Made by a program: the position numbers and the translations under genes
Shown: positions 26,842 through 35,296 of the stretch, in pieces
Numbering within the stretch: the stretch's first letter is position 1
How the letters are laid out: each line of letters opens with the position of its first letter
Notes under the pieces: model-generated
Told to the model about the DNA's origin: nothing
What the model saw: the letters and a program-made list of their open reading frames with translations, nothing else
Databases searched by the model: none
IMG/VR virus record: IMGVR_UViG_3300020056_001541
Coordinates: 1-43,658 of that record
Direction: 5' to 3' (one strand)
DNA from: a virus
DNA: 43,658 bases

Positions 26842-27170
26842 AAATTGTAGAATTTTTTGATCATGAAGCACAACCAGATAACTTGCTACCTCCAATTGAC
26901 TGGGACTTGTCCGAGGACCTAGTGATTTTTATGCGTAACGATCCAATGTTTTATCGTAAAAGTTTATTTCCAGCAATTGAAACTGTAAAAGCGTCTGATC
27001 CTATGGACACTACAGCATTACAAAATGTAGTGACAAGAGGGTTGGGAAAGTATTGCGAAAAGTTTAATATACCGCATCCAAAAAATGAATTATTAACAGA
27101 CGAAGATATATCAAGAATAGTAGAACGTTTGGTGCAAGAAGATTGTAAAGGCCAAACATATGGATCTTAA
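26835..27170 (+). CDS. Conserved small phage protein
   Basis: This 111-residue helical protein has the conserved-looking stretch PPIDWDLSEDLVIFMRNDPM, then FYRKSLFPAIETVK, and a C-terminal acidic helix (LLTDEDISRIVERLVQED). No catalytic or membrane motif is visible. I have seen similar sequences in marine T4-like phages next to head-gene homologues, without a function. It overlaps both neighbours by a few bases, so it is translated with the virion genes around it. Confidence 0.55.
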   Translation: MVKIVEFFDHEAQPDNLLPPIDWDLSEDLVIFMRNDPMFYRKSLFPAIETVKASDPMDTTALQNVVTRGLGKYCEKFNIPHPKNELLTDEDISRIVERLVQEDCKGQTYGS

Positions 27171-27378
27171 AACGCTTCAAAAACTTGCAGGTATAAATGA
27201 ATTCAAAGGATATACACCGTATACCAATGAAAACATTAGTCATACTGGCACAGAGAAAGCGCAAATACAAAAAGATCGCAATATACAACCTGGTGATCCA
27301 GATTGGTTTGAACTATGGTTTAGTAGACCATACTGGTTAGGTATGCCAGCAAAATTTAGAGGACGGACCAAAAGATGA
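27160..27378 (+). CDS. Small tagged protein (possible capsid-targeting N-terminus)
   Basis: This 72-residue protein begins MDLKTLQKLAGINE followed by F, giving an (I/L)xE word at residues 12-14. It then has a polar linker and a C-terminal 'NIQPGDPDWFELWFSRPYWL' segment known to me from marine T4-like phages. The short helical N-terminus resembles those of the downstream genes and the T4 capsid-targeting peptide. The stop overlaps the next start (ATGA). A virion-internal role is a hypothesis. Confidence 0.5.
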   Translation: MDLKTLQKLAGINEFKGYTPYTNENISHTGTEKAQIQKDRNIQPGDPDWFELWFSRPYWLGMPAKFRGRTKR

Positions 27379-27590
27379 GCTTATTCAAAAAAGTTTGGCG
27401 TAGTTGGAATCCATGGTATGTTCTAGAAGTAACGCACAGAGGCAAAGAAAGAAGATTCATAGTTAAAGATTTCAAAAAGAAATCTCCTAAGCACATAAGT
27501 GGCACAAATGCAGACGGAGAATTTTTTGAACTTAAAAGTGAAACTCCAATGGATTTTTATGTAGAAGAATATAGGGCAGATCTAAAATGA
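27375..27590 (+). CDS. Small basic conserved phage protein
   Basis: This 71-residue protein has a basic, Trp-containing N-terminus (MSLFKKVWRSWNPWYVLEVT) followed by beta-like strands (RRFIVKDFKKKSPKHISGTN) and an acidic end. It has no Cys and no membrane helix. It is flanked by ATGA overlaps on both sides. It could be a DNA-binding or virion-internal protein, but the family is not recognised. Confidence 0.5.
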   Translation: MSLFKKVWRSWNPWYVLEVTHRGKERRFIVKDFKKKSPKHISGTNADGEFFELKSETPMDFYVEEYRADLK

Positions 27591-27901
27591 AATATCCTGT
27601 AATGAATTATAAACAAATTGAAAAGATACGTAAAAAGTATGCAAAAGATTGGGAAGTTAGAGAGCAAAAATATCTCTATAAAAAAGTAGCATTTGACGAT
27701 TACAATGCTGCACTACGCTTTATGATGATGATAGAAAAGCCACAAATCAAATTAGATCATTTTGCAGACCTAGGGCTGTTTTATAACGAAATGATCATTA
27801 TGGTGTATACGCATGATGTAAAAGCACTAACACAATTAGACTTTGAACTGGCGGTGTATATAGATTATGCACTTGACAAAATGGGTGCGAGACAATTATG
27901 A
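27587..27901 (+). CDS. Pterin-4a-carbinolamine dehydratase (PCD/DCoH)-like protein
   Basis: This 104-residue protein has the PCD fold pattern: WEVREQKYLYKKVAFDDYNA, then ALRFMMMIEKPQ, HFADLGLFYNEMIIMVYTHD and LTQLDFELAVYID. His58 and Asp61 match the first His and the Asp of the family HHPD motif, but the second His and the Pro are Phe59 and Ala60. THD (75-77) is conserved. PCD recycles the pterin cofactor, and DCoH also dimerises with a transcription factor. The altered active site makes catalysis doubtful; a binding role is possible. Stop and start overlap with neighbours (ATGA). Confidence 0.65.
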   Translation: MKYPVMNYKQIEKIRKKYAKDWEVREQKYLYKKVAFDDYNAALRFMMMIEKPQIKLDHFADLGLFYNEMIIMVYTHDVKALTQLDFELAVYIDYALDKMGARQL

Positions 27902-28518
27902 AGATTACAGAAGTAACACAGAACCAAAGGTTAAACGAGTTTGTATTCATACCACCGGTTGTGGTAGCATTAACAACTGTAGGACTCCGCGTTGGCACTG
28001 GATTGTATGCCTTGCACTTAGCATGGAAAATTTATACAGGGCTACGAAGCGGCGAAATGACAAGAGCAGAAGCAGTAAAGTTAGTCGGAGAAGAGGCTGC
28101 TTATGTATTGGGAGGTATAGCTGCTTTTAAAGGTGCAACTATGACCTGGAGGGCTTTTAAAAGACACTGGAAAAAAGCCACAGCAGGCACAGTTGGTATA
28201 GGTGCTGGCACAGGTGTTGCAGCTCAAACTGACGAGCCAATAAAAGAAAATTTAGCCAAAGGGCTAAGAGCAATATTCGATGTTGCAAAGAATTTTGACG
28301 AATATAAAAAAGAAGTTTTTAAAATACTTAGACGCAGTTCTAAATTCAAAAACCTACCCGATGAAAAAATCGAAAAAATGTCTCATGCTATAACCACAGC
28401 AGAAACTTCTAAAAGAGCAACAAGATCCGCAGCACCAGACGACGACTTTAATATTGAGTTAGAACGGAGACGTTTAAATTTTGATCGCGGCGACTATTTA
28501 CAACCAGTGGATGACTAA
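27898..28518 (+). CDS. Tagged protein with membrane-like segments
   Basis: This 206-residue protein begins with MKITEVTQNQRLNE followed by F, an (I/L)xE word at 12-14 in a short tag similar to its neighbours. Residues about 16-42 (FVFIPPVVVALTTVGLRVGT onward) and 68-80 are hydrophobic. A Gly/Ala-rich part (TAGTVGIGAGTGVAAQ, about 92-107) follows, then a charged helical C-terminus. It may be a virion-packaged protein that meets a membrane during DNA entry, or an inner-head component. No family is recognised. Confidence 0.5.
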   Translation: MKITEVTQNQRLNEFVFIPPVVVALTTVGLRVGTGLYALHLAWKIYTGLRSGEMTRAEAVKLVGEEAAYVLGGIAAFKGATMTWRAFKRHWKKATAGTVGIGAGTGVAAQTDEPIKENLAKGLRAIFDVAKNFDEYKKEVFKILRRSSKFKNLPDEKIEKMSHAITTAETSKRATRSAAPDDDFNIELERRRLNFDRGDYLQPVDD

Positions 28519-28937
28519 TGAGAAGTTACTTGAATATCGTAGAAGCAGCAAATAAAGGCTGTCCTATAGCAACACAAGATGTTGATGTTAATTTGAAAAA
28601 TCGTCAAACAGCAATTGACGATTACTATTATGGACCAGCCAATCCTGACAAGCCTGGCAACTATTGGAAAGACTATGCCAAACGTTGGAAAATAGATGAG
28701 AAAACTGCAAAAACCATGCAGTGTAATAATTGTGCAGCGTTTGACGTTTCGGACAAAATGTGGGCATGTATAGAATCAGGTATACAAGGCGATGAAAAAA
28801 ATGCTGATGCAATGGCAACTATACACAAAGCAGACATAGGTTATTGTAATTTTTTACATTTTAAATGTGCAGGCTCACGTAGTTGCACAGCATGGGTAAG
28901 TGGAGGCGCTATTGACGACAAGGATCTTACCAAATGA
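28518..28937 (+). CDS. Tagged Cys-rich protein, possible high-potential Fe-S type
   Basis: This 139-residue protein starts MRSYLNIVE followed by A, closely resembling the T4 capsid-targeting peptide MKTYQEFIAE/A. Apart from Cys15, six cysteines lie in the second half: MQCNNCAAFDVSDKMWAC (69, 72, 84), GYCNFLHFKC (110, 117) and SCTAW (123). C-x2-C, then spaced Cys and a GYC near an aromatic residue is reminiscent of HiPIP iron-sulfur proteins, and zinc is the alternative. The start is in a TAATG overlap. It lies two genes before the superoxide dismutase. Cofactor and function are unproven. Confidence 0.5.
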   Translation: MRSYLNIVEAANKGCPIATQDVDVNLKNRQTAIDDYYYGPANPDKPGNYWKDYAKRWKIDEKTAKTMQCNNCAAFDVSDKMWACIESGIQGDEKNADAMATIHKADIGYCNFLHFKCAGSRSCTAWVSGGAIDDKDLTK

Positions 28938-29479
28938 AGATAAATGAAATTGACGATTTTACAAAAAGAGACATAGAAAATACTCGCTCGTTGAACGTGG
29001 CAAAATCTATGGCCAAAGGTAGCAATATGAGTCAGATGGCCGATAAAATAGAAGACAAGTATCTATCTATTCGCGACGAAGCATTACGCTATGCACAACA
29101 AGACGGCAATTTAGATCTATATCAAGCATATGTTATGGCAATCCAAGACCACAATCTTGATCCTGCAATGGTTTTTGATTGGATGAGAGCACCAGAAATA
29201 CACCAGAATGAAGATTTAAAAGATGCAATTCCAATGGAAGCAGAAACAGGCGGATGGTTGCAGAGATATGAAGAAGAAGGTGAAAAAAGATATTCTACAA
29301 TTCCTGATGCTAGAGTCAAAAGAATATTATCTAAAAAGAAAGAACTTGTAGACCAAGGTATGGAGCCTGAAGACGCACAAGACGAAGCAGCAAAATTTTT
29401 TAATGTAGATTCAGAGGAATTTGATGAATTGCTGTCAAGTATGGATGTTAAAAGACTTAAAAAGTTATCGGGAATATAA
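28934..29479 (+). CDS. Helical tagged protein, unknown function
   Basis: This 181-residue, almost entirely helical, acidic protein begins [15 protein letters not shown] followed by N. It shares the MKIxEI opening with neighbours, and (I)xE words occur at residues 3-5 and 13-15. The middle ([20 protein letters not shown]) and the C-terminus ([20 protein letters not shown]) are amphipathic helices. No catalytic signature. It starts by ATGA overlap. It ends one base before the SOD start. A core or internal head protein is plausible from tag and context. Confidence 0.5.
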
Positions 29480-29480
29480 A

Positions 29481-30215
29481 ATGAAGATAAACCAAATATT
29501 AGAAGGTGTAGGTCGTATAACGTCACAAAATCAAACACATGATGTTGGCCCAAACGAAATAAAAACACAGGCAGCAAAATTTGGTAACATTGTAGACAAA
29601 GACGGACGCCCGCCGACACTGAGCACCAAAGTCAAAGGCAAAAGCACCAATGTATTGTATAATTTAGGACTTGCAGAAAGCAAACAATACACTTGTCCTA
29701 GAACCAAAGCTGCTTCTTGCCAATGCGAAAGTTTAAACAAAGTTACAGAATCAGATGAAGAAATTACTGCAATCAGTGTTTTAGAGCACAGTGATGCAGT
29801 CAAAGGCACTTTGCTATTCAAACAAAAATCAGATGGCGACACATTGATAGTTGGGGAAATATCGGGTTTGACTCCAGGCGAACATGGATTTCATATACAT
29901 GAATTCGGAGACTTGAGCAATGGTTGTGAAAGCGCAGGGGGCCACTATAATCCTGACGGTGTAAATCATGGAGATATAAACAAAGGACATGTTGGCGATC
30001 TAGGTAATATTGTTGCAAACAAAAGCGGAGTAGCAAATGTAAGGATAGCTGCCAAAAGAGTTACTCTTAGAGGCGAACGCAGTATTGTAGGCAGAGCAGT
30101 AGTTGTCCACGAAGATAAAGATGATTTAGGCAAAGGCGGAGATACAGAAAGTCTTAAAACAGGCAATGCAGGTGATAGACTTGCCTGTGGTGTTATAACA
30201 TTGAAGGAAAGTTGA
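29481..30215 (+). CDS. sodC: Cu/Zn superoxide dismutase with phage-specific N-terminal region
   Basis: This 244-residue protein starts at ATG 29481, one base after the previous stop. Residues about 95-244 are a complete SodC domain. Copper ligands are His138, His140 (GFHIHEFGD), bridging His155 (GGHYNP) and His210 (VVVHED). Zinc ligands are His163, His170 and Asp173 (HVGDLGNI). The disulfide pair is Cys149 and Cys236, and the guiding Arg is 233. It converts superoxide to H2O2 and O2. Unlike bacterial SodC it has no signal peptide. It begins MKINQILE followed by G, then ~85 residues including [16 protein letters not shown]. The tag suggests packaging in the capsid (inference). Confidence 0.93.
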
Positions 30216-30216
30216 A

Positions 30217-30471
30217 GTGTATGCAGACTCAGAAAGATTTAAAAAAACTGGTAAAAAAGAAAACCAAAAAGTTGGACAAAGCCAATCAGAAAGCAACACG
30301 GTTACGATTGTCAATAGCGGAAGCAAAACGAACCTTGGCATCGATGAAGACGGAAACATAGACGATATAGAATTTGCTCACTATGTGAATAAATACAAAG
30401 AGCACGAACAAAAGCATACAAGCACAAACGAACGAGCAAAATACTGGAAAGAATACAATGAAAATAAGTAA
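30217..30471 (+). CDS. Small polar phage protein (GTG start)
   Basis: This 84-residue hydrophilic protein starts at GTG 30217, eight bases after AAGGA. Its N-terminal third is basic and polar (ERFKKTGKKENQKVGQSQSE). The C-terminal half is acidic then helical (NLGIDEDGNIDDIEFAHYVN, KYKEHEQKHTSTNERAKYWK). An overlapping +1 frame from ATG 30221 (46 codons) is open, but its codon choice (CGG, GCG, TCG) is unlike the genome's. The end overlaps the next gene by 14 bases. Function unknown. Confidence 0.5.
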   Translation: MYADSERFKKTGKKENQKVGQSQSESNTVTIVNSGSKTNLGIDEDGNIDDIEFAHYVNKYKEHEQKHTSTNERAKYWKEYNENK

Positions 30472-31153
30472 CCTAGACGAAGGATTTTTAGATAGCGTGA
30501 AGCAATGGTTTACAGGACCTAGTTATATTGACCGTTGGGCAGAAAAAAGAGATGACGCTGTAGGCGATATGTCAAGAAAATTTGTAAGTATGCGAGAAGA
30601 ATATGCCGACACTGAATGGGCAGAGCAAATTGCTTGTCGTATAGACACGTTTGAGGATTTTGTTTTAATCAAAGGTCGTGCTCCAAACGATCGTTCGCAA
30701 AGCCCACGTGCTGTATTAGATCCGGCAGCATGGCAAGCCAAAAATGGTAATCACAAATGTGCAATCAAAGAGTCAGTTAACGAAATGAGTGCTGGAGGAG
30801 TTACGGTAGCAGCAGTAGCAATGCCATTAGGCATGCAAAGCAGAAACGGCACTGTAACACCAAAAAAGAAGAGAAAGAAAAACGAAGGTCAGTATGGCGA
30901 AATAACACATCAGGATCAAGACGTTACACAATCCGAAGTATTGGTTAAAGGCATGGGCGTGTATAGAATGGATCAACTTGAGCAGCGCATCAAGGATAGA
31001 TTACAAAATCTTTCAACACTTATAGATAGAGGCGAGCCTGATCAAGCTGCCAAATTGTTAGCACCAAACAGCGGCACATACAAGTCATTGATTGCTATGA
31101 TGAATGCATATGCTGAAGCACATGACGATTTAGCATTTGGCGATAACAACTAG
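30458..31153 (+). CDS. Tagged virion-type protein, unknown function
   Basis: This 231-residue protein begins MKISNLDE followed by G, an (L)xE|G word matching the T4 gp21 protease consensus. The N-terminal domain (about 10-105) is helical with one Cys (IACRIDTFEDFVLIKGRAPN). A short hydrophobic Gly/Ala strip (MSAGGVTVAAVAMPLGMQSR, about 110-129) resembles a segment found in other marine T4-like phage proteins. A basic KKKRKK patch and a helical tail follow. It overlaps the previous gene by 14 bases. It is probably an inner-virion protein. Confidence 0.5.
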   Translation: MKISNLDEGFLDSVKQWFTGPSYIDRWAEKRDDAVGDMSRKFVSMREEYADTEWAEQIACRIDTFEDFVLIKGRAPNDRSQSPRAVLDPAAWQAKNGNHKCAIKESVNEMSAGGVTVAAVAMPLGMQSRNGTVTPKKKRKKNEGQYGEITHQDQDVTQSEVLVKGMGVYRMDQLEQRIKDRLQNLSTLIDRGEPDQAAKLLAPNSGTYKSLIAMMNAYAEAHDDLAFGDNN

Positions 31154-31161
31154 CTCTAACT

Positions 31162-31169
31162 GATAAATA
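31162..31169 (+). promoter_or_regulatory. T4-type late promoter (GATAAATA)
   Basis: GATAAATA lies eight bases after the previous stop and 28 bases before the ATG at 31198, with CGGAG at 31186-31190. It is partly shared with a palindrome (31167-31184). Confidence 0.65.
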
Positions 31170-31184
31170 GTATTAGTATACTAT
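31167..31184 (+). repeat. Perfect 7-bp inverted repeat in a late leader
   Basis: ATAGTAT and ATACTAT flank a TAGT loop. The repeat begins in the late promoter and covers the expected transcription start, upstream of the CGGAG ribosome site. It could be a protein-binding site or a weak leader hairpin, and being AT-only it may be chance. Confidence 0.35.
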
Positions 31185-31197
31185 TCGGAGCATTATA

Positions 31198-31551
31198 ATG
31201 ACAAAGAAAATCAAAGAAGGTTTAGCAGATCTTGCCGATCGTGCAGAACGTGATCACGAAGTTCAAATGGCACGTAGCGATCTATACAAGCTGGCCAAAT
31301 ATTCAATAAAATTACACGAAATGCTTAAAAATGTTTCAGAAGCAGAAGGCATTGAGGGATGGCAACAGGCCAAAATTACAAAAGCCGCAGACTACATTTC
31401 AAGCGTATACCATGCAATGGATTACGACATGAACATGGAAATGCCAATGGCTGCTGAAAGTGCAAAACCAAAGCGTAGAGCACCAGTATTAAGCGAAGAA
31501 GAATTCACAACATATAAAGCAAACCTAAAAGCAAAACTTCAGAGGAAATAA
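31198..31551 (+). CDS. Conserved tagged phage structural-type protein
   Basis: This 117-residue helical protein starts MTKKIKE followed by G, an (I)xE|G word. The middle (DLYKLAKYSIKLHEMLKNVS, then GWQQAKITKAADYISSVYHAMDY) is a pattern I associate with a conserved protein in marine T4-like phages that lies among head-assembly genes. The C-terminus is basic (NLKAKLQRK). It has its own late promoter and CGGAG ribosome site, so it may be abundant. Its precise role is unknown; a prohead-core or internal protein is my guess. Confidence 0.55.
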   Translation: MTKKIKEGLADLADRAERDHEVQMARSDLYKLAKYSIKLHEMLKNVSEAEGIEGWQQAKITKAADYISSVYHAMDYDMNMEMPMAAESAKPKRRAPVLSEEEFTTYKANLKAKLQRK

Positions 31552-31553
31552 TC

Positions 31554-31961
31554 ATGAAAGTAAACGAGATTGTTACTGAAGCACAACAGCTAAACGAAAT
31601 TCGTAGTTTTATTAAAGTAGGCGAGTTTCTATGGAAATATGTTCCGCTTAACGTCAAAAAGAAAATGCCATGGGGTAAAAAACCAGATGCATGGAATCCT
31701 GACGAATTTATGCAATATTTAGAGAAAACAGGTAATGCAAAACGAGATTTAGAAAATTTAATAAAAAATGTTCCTAGTGTTGAGCAACTTGCCAAGATGG
31801 AAAAACATCTTGGTGATTATCTAAAGACAAATCCAAAAGCATCTCCTGCAGGACAATATTTAATAGATGTCATAAGATTACGCAAACAAGAGTTAATTAA
31901 AATGAATCAAAGTTTTACACGTCCAGATGTAAGACCAAGAGACGATTGGAGAAACATGTAA
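31554..31961 (+). CDS. Tagged small basic protein
   Basis: This 135-residue protein begins MKVNEIVTE followed by A, then QQLNE followed by I, so two xE words lie in its first 15 residues. The rest is basic and helical (WKYVPLNVKKKMPWGKKPDA, LGDYLKTNPKASPAGQYLID). It has no Cys and no hydrophobic span. It starts two bases after the previous stop and ends in a TAATG overlap with the next gene. It could be an internal head protein contacting DNA. Confidence 0.5.
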   Translation: MKVNEIVTEAQQLNEIRSFIKVGEFLWKYVPLNVKKKMPWGKKPDAWNPDEFMQYLEKTGNAKRDLENLIKNVPSVEQLAKMEKHLGDYLKTNPKASPAGQYLIDVIRLRKQELIKMNQSFTRPDVRPRDDWRNM

Positions 31962-32611
31962 TGGATTTTCATGCACTACAGCACAAACTATTTGCGTTGG
32001 ATCCTGTAGATCCTAAAGAAGATCTAGCAAGACTCAGAGGACAGGCACAAGGTGCTGCACAAGCGCCAGTTGAGTCAGATGTAGATTACTTGCAAGAAAG
32101 TGCAAGTGTGCCAGAAGGTTCATTACAGATGGATAGAAACTACAGTGTAGCAGATTTTGCAGCACTTGCTGGTGTAAGTGAAGGACAAAAAACAGGTAGT
32201 GCAGGTCAAGCAAAAGGTAGTGATCCTATGCCCAAATTAAGCAAGCCTAGTCGCACTGGCGAACAGCCTCATCCATTAAAAGACAAACTTGTCGGCGATA
32301 GCATACAATACGAAGATGATGATCGTATTAGTGCATTAGAGCGCAGGATTGAAGCATTAGAAGCCTTGCTGAATGAAAAAGCAGTCAGTAAAAAACAGCA
32401 GCAATTCTTTGGCGTTGTAAGATCAATGCAAAAAGGCGATACACCTCCTGAGGGAGAAGCAGGAGAAGTTGCTAAAGACATGTCAAAAGCAGATGTGAAA
32501 AAAATGGCAAGCACTAAACACAAAGGATTACCGACCAGAGCTGAAAATATTGACACAAGCGATATTAAAACTAGGTTGTATGATGCACTGAATAAAAAAA
32601 TGGGCCTATAA
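31961..32611 (+). CDS. Virion protein with DUF3008-like C-terminus
   Basis: This 216-residue protein starts at ATG 31961 (TAATG overlap; a TTG at 31946 has no support). The N-terminus MDFHALQHKLFALDPVDPKE is conserved in marine T4-like phages. NYSVADFAALAGVSEGQKTG and the DPMPKL/HPLKDKLVG stretch are further recurrent blocks. A coiled segment (ISALERRIEALEALLNEKAV) precedes a C-terminal 'SKKQQQFFGVVRSMQKGDTP ... ASTKHKGLPTR' region matching the DUF3008-type domain. It is a likely virion protein. Its function is unknown. Confidence 0.65.
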   Translation: MDFHALQHKLFALDPVDPKEDLARLRGQAQGAAQAPVESDVDYLQESASVPEGSLQMDRNYSVADFAALAGVSEGQKTGSAGQAKGSDPMPKLSKPSRTGEQPHPLKDKLVGDSIQYEDDDRISALERRIEALEALLNEKAVSKKQQQFFGVVRSMQKGDTPPEGEAGEVAKDMSKADVKKMASTKHKGLPTRAENIDTSDIKTRLYDALNKKMGL

Positions 32612-35296
32612 ATGAAACTTGAACACCTTTTACTTGTAGAAAACAATCTAGCTCAATTTAGAAATGCTCCGTTCAATGCCAACGTGCTTGGACAAAGATC
32701 GGGTGCTACAGATCTACAAGTTCAAGAAATTAAACAAGCACTGAAAAAACACAGACTTGCCCTTGGAGAAAGACCAGAAGGCAGTTTGTGGAACAGTGAT
32801 CAAATGGCATGGACGGGTGACGAAAGCGGAGTATGGACAGCTGAATTGTCTCGTGCTATTAGAACCTGGAAAGAAAGTATACAAAAGCAAACCCGGGGTG
32901 TTGCAAGAGCAAAAAAGATCTCAGTAAATGATACAATAAACAACGACGAAGATTTATTCTATTTGATAGACGCAGAACTAATACCCGAAGGACAATCTGG
33001 TTTTGGATTTTTAAAGATAACCCAAGGCAGAGTTGCAAGTGAAATCAAAGCCATGTCAGCACGTATAGACTGGGCAGATGAGATTCCTGTAAAAAATGTA
33101 GATTCAATCAACAGTTTGGCAGATATGATCGACGGTATTGGTTACAATGGCTGGATTGCAATTATAACACCTATACTAAACACTAGGTTTCCTCCACCAA
33201 GAGATAATGCAAGAGTTGGTAGAGAGCGTGATGCTCTTATACAACAAATTAATACAACCACAGGCGGCTTGCGTCAATGGTATACAAATTTTAGAAGAAA
33301 AGTTTTAAGTGGTGTTCCAGAAAGTTTTAGTGTAGAAATAAATGGCAGCAAAGTGAAACTTTTGCCTGATGCTTATATGATAGTAAGGTCATTTCCGCAT
33401 AAATTGATGTTTCTTCATTTTGCAAACATTGCAAGTGCATTACTCAAGCAAGGTGCTGCCACTGACGCAGAAAGAGAGACTGCTGCTGCACAAGAAGACG
33501 CAGATCGATATGCAAATCAGCCAACCAGCACTGACATAGAATACGCGGGTCTTGCAAGAGCACTAAAAGCAGCGTTCGACAACGATTTATTAGCAGCAGT
33601 TTTACCTGGAGGCAGAGGTTACGAAAGTGACGATGAAATAATTGAAGATGTGTTCAGCAGAATAAAATCAGCAGCAGATTATGATAAAATTGCCCAAGCA
33701 TATGCAACACCCCAAATTGCAGGCGATAATGCAAACCTAGGCAAAGATCTGTCAGAACAAATGCGTCTTGAAGACTATGAAAGAATTGTAAAAATACGTT
33801 TGTCTTATGTAAGACGTATAGCACCTAAAATATTACATGCTAGAATTAATTTTGCAGGTGTAGAAAATATCACAGTAAATTTAGACAATAAAGAATATGT
33901 AATAGGTGATAGAGTATTCAACGACAAGGTGCAAATTGAACCCGAAGTGTTTGATGTAATACTTGAAGATGCAATACTGAGACAAGCAATTGAACAGTCA
34001 GGTAACACTATTCCAGACTTGTTTGTTGAGCCTAAAGATGTTCCAGACGAAATTAAATTGCGAGTTGCTAATTTGTTTATTGAAGCCATTGAAAGCACGT
34101 ATCCTGAACTTGTTCCATGGTATACCAATCAAGAACCTTTTGATAGTGTATCGTTAGATCTCGGCGGGGCAAGACTACGTGAAATAATGGCAGAATTAGC
34201 AGTGCTTGCCAATGCTGGGTCGTCGGATTCAGAAATGACACAGCGCATAGTTGATATATTAGAAAGCGATAGATTGTGGCTGGTAGGCGACGGAACGGAA
34301 GATAATAGAGGCAATGCAGCGATAACATTTGATCGTAGGTATCAATTAGAAGGCTTAGGCGGAAGGACACTGCCAGCGTCAGATTTACAGACAAATTTAA
34401 ATGATACAGATCGTGATTTGATTACAAGAATGGCCGATGACAGAAAAGACATAGTTGCTGCTGCAATGGAAGAATTGGCTGCAAAACCAAATAGCAAAGA
34501 ATATTACAAAGACAAAATCTACAACGGATTTAGAATAGAAGAAGGAAAATATCCTGATCTATTCTATAACGGAGAGGAAGCTCTTAAATCTCTTTTACTG
34601 CAAGGCACATTCCCAGATAATGATGCACCTTTTGCTATGTTAATACGTGCATTGGATGATGATGTAGCAATAGCAGCGCCTAGTGTAATTGTTGATTTGA
34701 TAGAAGAAAGTTTTGAAGGCGAAAACTGGTTAGAGAGAAGGATCACCGGCGGCACCAACGAAGAACTGTTACTAGCATTGGTTTCTACAATTAAAGACAG
34801 AACTACATATAACTGGGTAAATACTTTCTATAATGGAAATTTATTCAACGATGTAAGACAAGAAGGCAGATGGAGTAGTGACTTTGTAAAAACGCTTGCT
34901 GATGCAATTGGTGCAGATTATGCAAGAGCACAAGAGTTCAGTGTTCCAGAAGCAGCAAATAATGCCTACTTAGAATTAAGAAATACGCTAGCCGGTAATG
35001 ATTTGTCAACAATGGATCAGAATGAACTACAGCCAGTGTTTGACGCTTTCTATCGTGCTTTTGATGCTTGGGGAGAAAGTAAAATGGATCCAGCACCAGG
35101 CGAGGAAGGTGGCAATCAAATAGCAAATATGACAAACTACTGGTCAGAAGTATTGTTACCATTCTTAGAAGTTATACTAAATGCATTTCCAAATGTAGAT
35201 GATATGGACGAATTACCAGAGCCATACAGAGAACTAGCAAACTACATTTATGAATGGAGACAAAAAGTTCTTAAAGTAGGAGGCTGGGGAGAATAA
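32612..35296 (+). CDS. Large (894-aa) tagged virion protein
   Basis: The largest gene of the head-like region encodes 894 residues starting MKLEHLLLVE followed by N, matching (L)xE at residues 8-10 of a 10-residue tag like that of T4. Residues about 55-95 (GERPEGSLWNSDQMAWTGDE onward to AIRTWKESI) resemble a peptidoglycan-binding-type fold. The rest is acidic and helical without recognised catalytic motifs. In T4, large packaged proteins such as Alt are injected with the DNA; an analogous ejected or core protein is possible. A TATAAATG overlapping its start is not counted as a promoter. Confidence 0.55.
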   Translation: MKLEHLLLVENNLAQFRNAPFNANVLGQRSGATDLQVQEIKQALKKHRLALGERPEGSLWNSDQMAWTGDESGVWTAELSRAIRTWKESIQKQTRGVARAKKISVNDTINNDEDLFYLIDAELIPEGQSGFGFLKITQGRVASEIKAMSARIDWADEIPVKNVDSINSLADMIDGIGYNGWIAIITPILNTRFPPPRDNARVGRERDALIQQINTTTGGLRQWYTNFRRKVLSGVPESFSVEINGSKVKLLPDAYMIVRSFPHKLMFLHFANIASALLKQGAATDAERETAAAQEDADRYANQPTSTDIEYAGLARALKAAFDNDLLAAVLPGGRGYESDDEIIEDVFSRIKSAADYDKIAQAYATPQIAGDNANLGKDLSEQMRLEDYERIVKIRLSYVRRIAPKILHARINFAGVENITVNLDNKEYVIGDRVFNDKVQIEPEVFDVILEDAILRQAIEQSGNTIPDLFVEPKDVPDEIKLRVANLFIEAIESTYPELVPWYTNQEPFDSVSLDLGGARLREIMAELAVLANAGSSDSEMTQRIVDILESDRLWLVGDGTEDNRGNAAITFDRRYQLEGLGGRTLPASDLQTNLNDTDRDLITRMADDRKDIVAAAMEELAAKPNSKEYYKDKIYNGFRIEEGKYPDLFYNGEEALKSLLLQGTFPDNDAPFAMLIRALDDDVAIAAPSVIVDLIEESFEGENWLERRITGGTNEELLLALVSTIKDRTTYNWVNTFYNGNLFNDVRQEGRWSSDFVKTLADAIGADYARAQEFSVPEAANNAYLELRNTLAGNDLSTMDQNELQPVFDAFYRAFDAWGESKMDPAPGEEGGNQIANMTNYWSEVLLPFLEVILNAFPNVDDMDELPEPYRELANYIYEWRQKVLKVGGWGE

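Follow-up and report, generated by a model that had tools for sequence, protein, structure and literature searches.

Predicted capsid-targeting tags on a putative cargo gene cluster of an uncultivated marine jumbo phage of the T4 superfamily

Introduction

The gp21 protease of bacteriophage T4 cuts at L/I-X-E, and a ten-residue N-terminal tag, the capsid-targeting sequence (CTS), suffices for packaging (PMC9026906). Residues 4 and 7 of the CTS serve targeting and residues 8 and 10 processing, and the CTS has already been proposed as a general loading route for varied proteins in T4-like phages (PMC9026906). Here we analysed a 43,658-base IMG/VR virus record (43.7 kb, ‘the window’) from an uncultivated marine jumbo phage of the T4 superfamily, in which an initial annotation had listed nine T4-like tags on genes starting between 27160 and 32612 and had proposed that these genes encode capsid cargo. 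Genes are named by their first base, and the window features whose coordinates are given below all lie on the + strand. Six of the genes (28518, 29481, 30458, 31198, 31554 and 32612), and perhaps 27898 and 31961, very probably encode internal head proteins with cleaved capsid-targeting tags.

Like T4 IPII, IPIII and Alt, the predicted cargo begins with a short peptide, of core [ED][FILV][ILVF]xE↓ (↓, predicted cut), that is shared by unrelated bodies and often followed by Ala; an S77 protease and an LxE capsid site are also found, as in T4, in the window's relatives. Unlike in T4, the tag is mostly one residue shorter (9 residues), the cargo families are many more and include superoxide dismutase (SOD), HAD-nucleotidase-like, nucleotidyltransferase-like and iron-sulfur-like proteins, internal sites occur in fusion proteins, and the system is known from sequence alone. 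The inner-body and ejection proteins of phiKZ and SPN3US offer a second comparison, since these too are giant phages with many internal head proteins processed C-terminal to a Glu. phiKZ cuts at S/A-x-E, however, and SPN3US propeptides mostly exceed 100 residues (PMC9026906, PMC5694885), whereas here I, L, V or F stands two positions ahead of the Glu, the tag has 9 residues and the features of phiKZ-type propeptides are absent. A third comparison is with polyvalent proteins. These phage proteins of several domains have been proposed to be packaged, to be delivered along with the DNA and to be processed by zincin-like metallopeptidases (PMC5512222); the joints of the fusion proteins described below instead bear a prohead protease motif.

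The window is probably a piece of a larger genome, without head genes. Because no recognisable head gene, capsid and protease genes included, was found in its 43.7 kb, the evidence on capsid and protease was taken from relatives. The nearest isolates by DNA polymerase are Sinorhizobium phage Phosso (50%) and Agrobacterium phage Atu_ph07 (47%). Close homologues of the window cargo genes were found in no isolate: the search returned only distant phage SODs, only a few distant genes for the iron-sulfur-like protein, and no match for the basic NFADG module met in the fusion proteins.

Results

The three-residue motif and the full tag

Each of the nine peptides quoted in the initial annotation was located in the window, at a plausible start. 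An [IL]xE whose Glu falls at residues 6–16 occurs in 8 of the 13 genes starting at 27160–32612 and in 4 of the 48 other window genes (Fisher p = 1.5e-4, for a region picked post hoc, after viewing the sequence). By chance the bare motif is found in about 11–12% of genes, and its regional over-representation taken alone is weak evidence. To say that most genes of the region are tagged is generous, as 27375, 27587, 30217 and 31961, scattered among the tagged genes, have no N-terminal tag. Across whole genomes, 39 genes of the relative G002 carry [IL]xE (28–34 expected) and 30 genes of G003 (22–25 expected). With so little overall enrichment, genome-wide counting was dropped as proof, and homologues together with the full tag were used instead. 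As a three-residue motif is common by chance, each tag was tested against its homologues, which were drawn from 248 loci.

This weak genome-wide signal, and the fact that MK starts are common, would suit an explanation by chance, in which a loose [IL]xE often arises at short, Lys-rich, AT-biased gene starts. The full tag speaks against it. In relatives, the 9-residue form M[KR]xx[ED][FILV][ILVF]xE↓ stands about 12-fold above expectation: [ED][FILV][ILVF]xE starting at residues 4–8 is present in 102 of the 2509 distinct N-termini, where 8.1 would be expected from an interval of the same size placed at internal protein positions. The length is exactly 9 residues in 94 of these 102 tags, the second residue is K or R in 88, and position −2 relative to the Glu holds I (44) or L (41) in 85, V in 13 and F in 4; the predicted cut is most often followed by Ala. 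Tags of the window genes have 7–10 residues. In families whose bodies have diverged to about 25% identity the tag is invariant, and the same tag is rare in phiKZ and SPO1 (see below). Chance is thus contradicted for 28518, 29481 and 32612 and, as an account of the whole set, very improbable; it may still hold for 27160, 27898 and 28934.

In relatives the same tags also head dozens of proteins with unrelated bodies, among them enzymes such as SOD and long chains of several modules; MRAREFVIE on two different bodies is one example. Words formed by residues 2–6 are common to unrelated bodies in 46 cases, compared with 1–4 at nine internal offsets; residue 1 was left out in this rerun, as a control with a fixed Met had been unfair. 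Modules are clearly shuffled among genes, and leader DNA could conceivably have spread by recombination between gene starts, the peptide itself being unselected. Yet when unrelated bodies share a leader peptide, its codons differ synonymously at 45 of 84 positions; what was kept is thus the peptide and not the DNA, which makes mobile leader DNA an extremely unlikely explanation. A check proposed with the initial annotation, whether the tag is conserved while the bodies differ, was therefore borne out at both levels: within families the (I/L)xE stays as adjoining residues and body diverge, and across families the same tag residues precede unrelated bodies through different codons.

Control genomes

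Applied unchanged to T4, the pattern retrieved seven genes, including ipII, ipIII, alt and gp24, that is, internal or gp21-processed head proteins (for gp24 and Alt processing, PMC9026906). The MKTYQEFIAE↓A of ipII and ipIII has the same core as the relatives' tag, one residue further in. The match to uvsY is probably false, and those to 61.1 and vs.6 are uncertain; gene 61.1 (NC_000866 18966–19130), encoding an uncharacterised protein of 54 aa, starts with MKTFKEFIKE↓D, a sequence similar to the tag of the internal proteins. In phiKZ, where no S77 protease match was found, none of 35 MK/MR genes has the tag, and in SPO1 two of 35 do.

Atu_ph07 has 20 tags against 3 expected, 12 of them grouped at 32–50 kb. 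Eleven tagged genes (gp43 and gp53–gp62) fall within CDS 31–76, from which 29 proteins were detected in virions by mass spectrometry (PMC6102473). The ten consecutive genes gp53–gp62 (NC_042013 39484–49507) carry M[KR]WxQL[TNI]E↓ or a close variant. The array is comparable to the window genes in its tags, here on ten genes in a row within a cluster where virion proteins detected by mass spectrometry abound; unlike the window genes, gp53–gp62 have bodies of another family and an 8-residue form of the tag. These bodies share a YRGM/YRGI motif, and the first gene of the array has a zeta-toxin-like kinase domain (E = 1.5e-14). An ADP-ribosyltransferase assignment for the array was considered and found no Pfam support.

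Tags of individual window genes

Comparison with homologues indicates that the tags of 29481, 28518 and 32612 are well supported. Gene 29481 (29481..30215) encodes a predicted cargo protein, a Cu/Zn SOD precursor, that matches the full Sod_Cu model (1–133) with 162.9 bits against a curated cut-off of 28.9 (E = 6.8e-48). Its tag, MKINQILE↓ (29481–29504), belongs to a frame that extends further upstream, with other starts at 29421 and 29445, and the start at 29481 is backed by homologues such as that of locus L009, MKYREIKEAVGRI. A candidate second site, LGLAE↓S (29664–29678), is followed by a third, NKVTE↓S (29736–29750), just ahead of the SOD domain. A Cys-rich peptide, CxRTxxxxCxC, precedes an [ILV]xE site and then the SOD domain in 43 distinct homologous contexts; this site is [IL]xE in 40 and VxE in 3, and its middle residue varies (S, T, N, Q, V, A). 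In the window the site before the SOD domain is VTE↓S, LAE↓S lying further upstream. The conserved CPRTKAxxCxC peptide between tag and SOD domain (e.g. nt 29694–29726) would be severed from the enzyme by cleavage, and one may ask whether it binds metal.

The product of gene 28518 (28518..28937) is a predicted cargo protein, Cys-rich and high-potential-iron-sulfur-like; ‘high potential iron-sulfur protein’ is the annotation given to related genes in phages. The end of its tag, MRSYLNIVE↓ (28518–28544), is kept as [IL][VI]E↓ in 29/29 distinct homologues. Gene 32612 (32612..35296), also predicted to encode cargo, specifies a protein of 894 aa with the tag MKLEHLLLVE↓ (32612–32641), whose [IL]xE is kept in all 20 aligned homologues (22–58% identity). 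Besides Met1, E10 is the sole invariant residue of the tag, and the residue before it can be V, K, S, T, L or F. Annexin-like sequence similarity was detected near residues 685–790 (E = 8e-5), with Annexin in 6/20 members, and some relatives show weak peptidoglycan-binding-like similarity. The predicted structure is of moderate confidence (pLDDT 75.8, pTM 0.41; residues 1–11 mostly below 50), and a fold search with it gave no significant match, so that the annexin similarity was not confirmed by fold.

Three further tags appear moderately supported. Gene 30458 (30458..31153), a predicted cargo gene, starts with MKISNLDE↓ (30458–30481), and its LDE is kept in locus L197, the single independent homologue, which is 96% identical. 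A putative internal site, ESVNE↓MSAGGVTVAAVAMP (30770–30784), is proposed because MSAGS/TTSAGS-type modules in other proteins come after [ILV]xE tags or joints. The predicted cargo gene 31554 (31554..31961) has no informative homologues, and its tag, MKVNEIVTE↓ (31554–31580), was graded by its membership of the 9-residue class; the initial annotation had taken it for a weak match, when it is in fact the canonical 9-mer of the commonest tag class. Gene 31198 (31198..31551), likely encoding cargo, has the short tag MTKKIKE↓ (31198–31218). Its 47 distinct homologues have [IL]xE in 22 cases, [ILV]xE in 35 and TxE in 10, and the module recurs in other proteins as a fusion downstream of [ILV]xE.

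Protease and capsid sites in relatives

Short conserved N-terminal helices can act as docking peptides in other systems. The N-terminal helix of the window proteins could likewise be a real docking signal that stays uncleaved and serves another assembly, such as tail, baseplate, membrane or enzyme complex; assignment to the head is indirect. Several observations on relatives make this unlikely and favour cleaved head tags. On a single contig, G002 encodes a SOD, an S77 protease of 213 aa and a gp23-type capsid protein; G021–G023, Phosso and Atu_ph07 each encode an S77 (gp21-type) prohead protease and a gp23-type capsid protein. The proteases retain GVSSRG and HP motifs in an alignment whose G002 row is a scaffold-like neighbour and not the protease, and whose G022 row is partial. 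Aligned with the T4 gp23 site LTE↓AEIGG, the capsid sequence of six jumbo relatives is L[QSM]E↓[STN]AT[AT]G; the initial annotation had suggested comparing the tags with capsid cleavage sites. These capsid proteins would thus mature at LxE, and the near-fixed residues of the tags are only those of a gp21-type cut site. The known head proteins recovered in T4 point the same way.

About eleven cargo-like proteins contain xxE, in most cases [ILV]xE, followed directly by a stretch resembling ATAGATSAG[NS][VI]A, a match to the way the mature capsid protein begins in several relatives. They were found at loci L009, L016, L024, L030, L042, L081, L082, L247 and L274, in G002 (109112–109606) and in G003 (114231–114497). 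Their repetition of the mature capsid N-terminus also disfavours simple docking. By copying it (E↓xATAGATSAG[NS][VI]A), cargo possibly binds where the capsid arm binds. The protease and capsid proteins of G002, G021–G023, Phosso and Atu_ph07 themselves include tag-like N-termini (MSLYLRE↓N, MANFLTE↓A, MSELLE↓S, MSKLFE↓S).

Fusion proteins and their joints

Several SOD homologues are chains of 400–2400 aa made of SOD, HAD-nucleotidase-like, ParB-like and basic modules, the names other than SOD being our reading of the sequences. Joints were examined with modules that stand behind a tag when encoded singly and that recur inside longer proteins with unrelated upstream sequence. [IL]xE was present at the joint in 133 of 434 such contexts (10.0 expected) and [ILV]xE in 194 of 516 (18.3 expected). 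Control classes were also raised (AGSTxE 5.1-fold, DNKRxE 2.8-fold, FYWxE 3.0-fold), and part of the joint signal is therefore due to plain homology; the excess beyond the controls supports cutting at joints, short of proof. This tag-to-joint test replaced a first one based on alignment breakpoints, which was noisy ([ILV]xE 338 vs 225, controls 208/181 and 187/180), and an interim version counted artefacts of truncated gene calls, which were reduced by demanding different upstream sequence.

We see even chances that these chains are polyproteins, in which unrelated small modules (SOD, HAD-nucleotidase-like, ParB-like, basic NFADG and others) are joined by [ILV]xE, a single tag delivers the chain to the prohead and the capsid maturation protease cuts it, some modules copying the mature capsid N-terminus after the cut.

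Unsupported tags and neighbouring genes

Two listed tags fail. In gene 27160 (27160..27378; MDLKTLQKLAGINE↓F, LAGINE↓F) the site is lost in homologues (LAGIKNKF, LAGIRNKF, LAGVNEF), and in gene 28934 (28934..29479) MKINEI, listed as a weak match, continues as MKINEIDDF, with no [IL]xE after it. Gene 27898 (27898..28518), a possible cargo gene, has the tag-like start MKITEVTQNQRLNE↓ (27898–27939): RLNE↓F is kept in its single independent homologue, and its leader MKITEVT also begins an unrelated gene in locus L024. The other six of the nine are supported to varying degree.

Gene 31961 (31961..32611), an untagged neighbour, has an internal DYLQE↓S (32084–32098) and a C-terminal KKQQQFFG/DUF3008-like module (E = 2e-4 against DUF3008, below the profile's cut-off). 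The strict form D[YF][ILV]xE↓S occurs in 23 of 34 distinct homologues, and most of the others shown keep [ILV]xE; 31961 is a possible long-propeptide substrate. Its C-terminal module is common to many cyanophage proteins, some adjoining head genes; among those looked at, none has a clear N-terminal tag.

The T4-late-promoter-like element GATAAATA lies at 31162..31169, 36 nt upstream of gene 31198. All six occurrences of GATAAATA in the window are within 80 nt upstream of a start, and several precede tail-fibre-like genes. A similar element stands 34 nt upstream of the syntenic counterpart of 31198 in G001, and in G002 the same element precedes a portal-like gene.

Discussion

The T4-like reading of the initial annotation is supported for about six genes; elsewhere in the region two tags fail, and untagged genes are interspersed. 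Several points weigh against cleaved capsid-targeting tags. Protease specificity is borrowed from relatives whose DNA polymerases are ~50–61% identical, and strict tags are few in G003 and G021. Two of the nine listed tags fail, the 31198 tag is looser, with TxE in 10/47 homologues, and the window SOD site reads VTE and not [IL]xE. Shared ancestry contributes to the joint test, as the raised control classes indicate, and the site is absent at the mapped position in 62–69% of fusion contexts. Support from mass spectrometry is at cluster level, with no tagged Atu_ph07 protein individually confirmed in the virion.

We infer packaging, cleavage and ejection, and a role of the SOD and the other proteins in the host, along the following lines. 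Cargo would be made late, each protein with an N-terminal tag of 7–10 residues, typically M-[KR]-x-x-[ED]-[FILV]-[ILVF]-x-E↓, whose hydrophobic face would dock it on the scaffold core as the prohead assembles. The S77 (gp21-type) protease would then cut after [IL]xE and free the body within the head, where it would remain with the DNA until its ejection into the next host. Where modules are fused serially with [ILV]xE at the joints, as they are in related genomes, the protease would split the polyproteins into separate products.

The cargo idea of the initial annotation probably understates the system. A search of open-access papers found no account of such an expansion of tags in marine jumbo phages, most subscription journals being outside its coverage. 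The tag would provide a sequence rule to predict the head contents and injected proteins of a large class of uncultured T4-like jumbo phages, for which virion proteomics of an isolate is otherwise needed. By this rule, the proteins that may be injected include superoxide dismutase, iron-sulfur-like and nucleotidase-like enzymes, and the capsid protease may have a second function in processing polyproteins.

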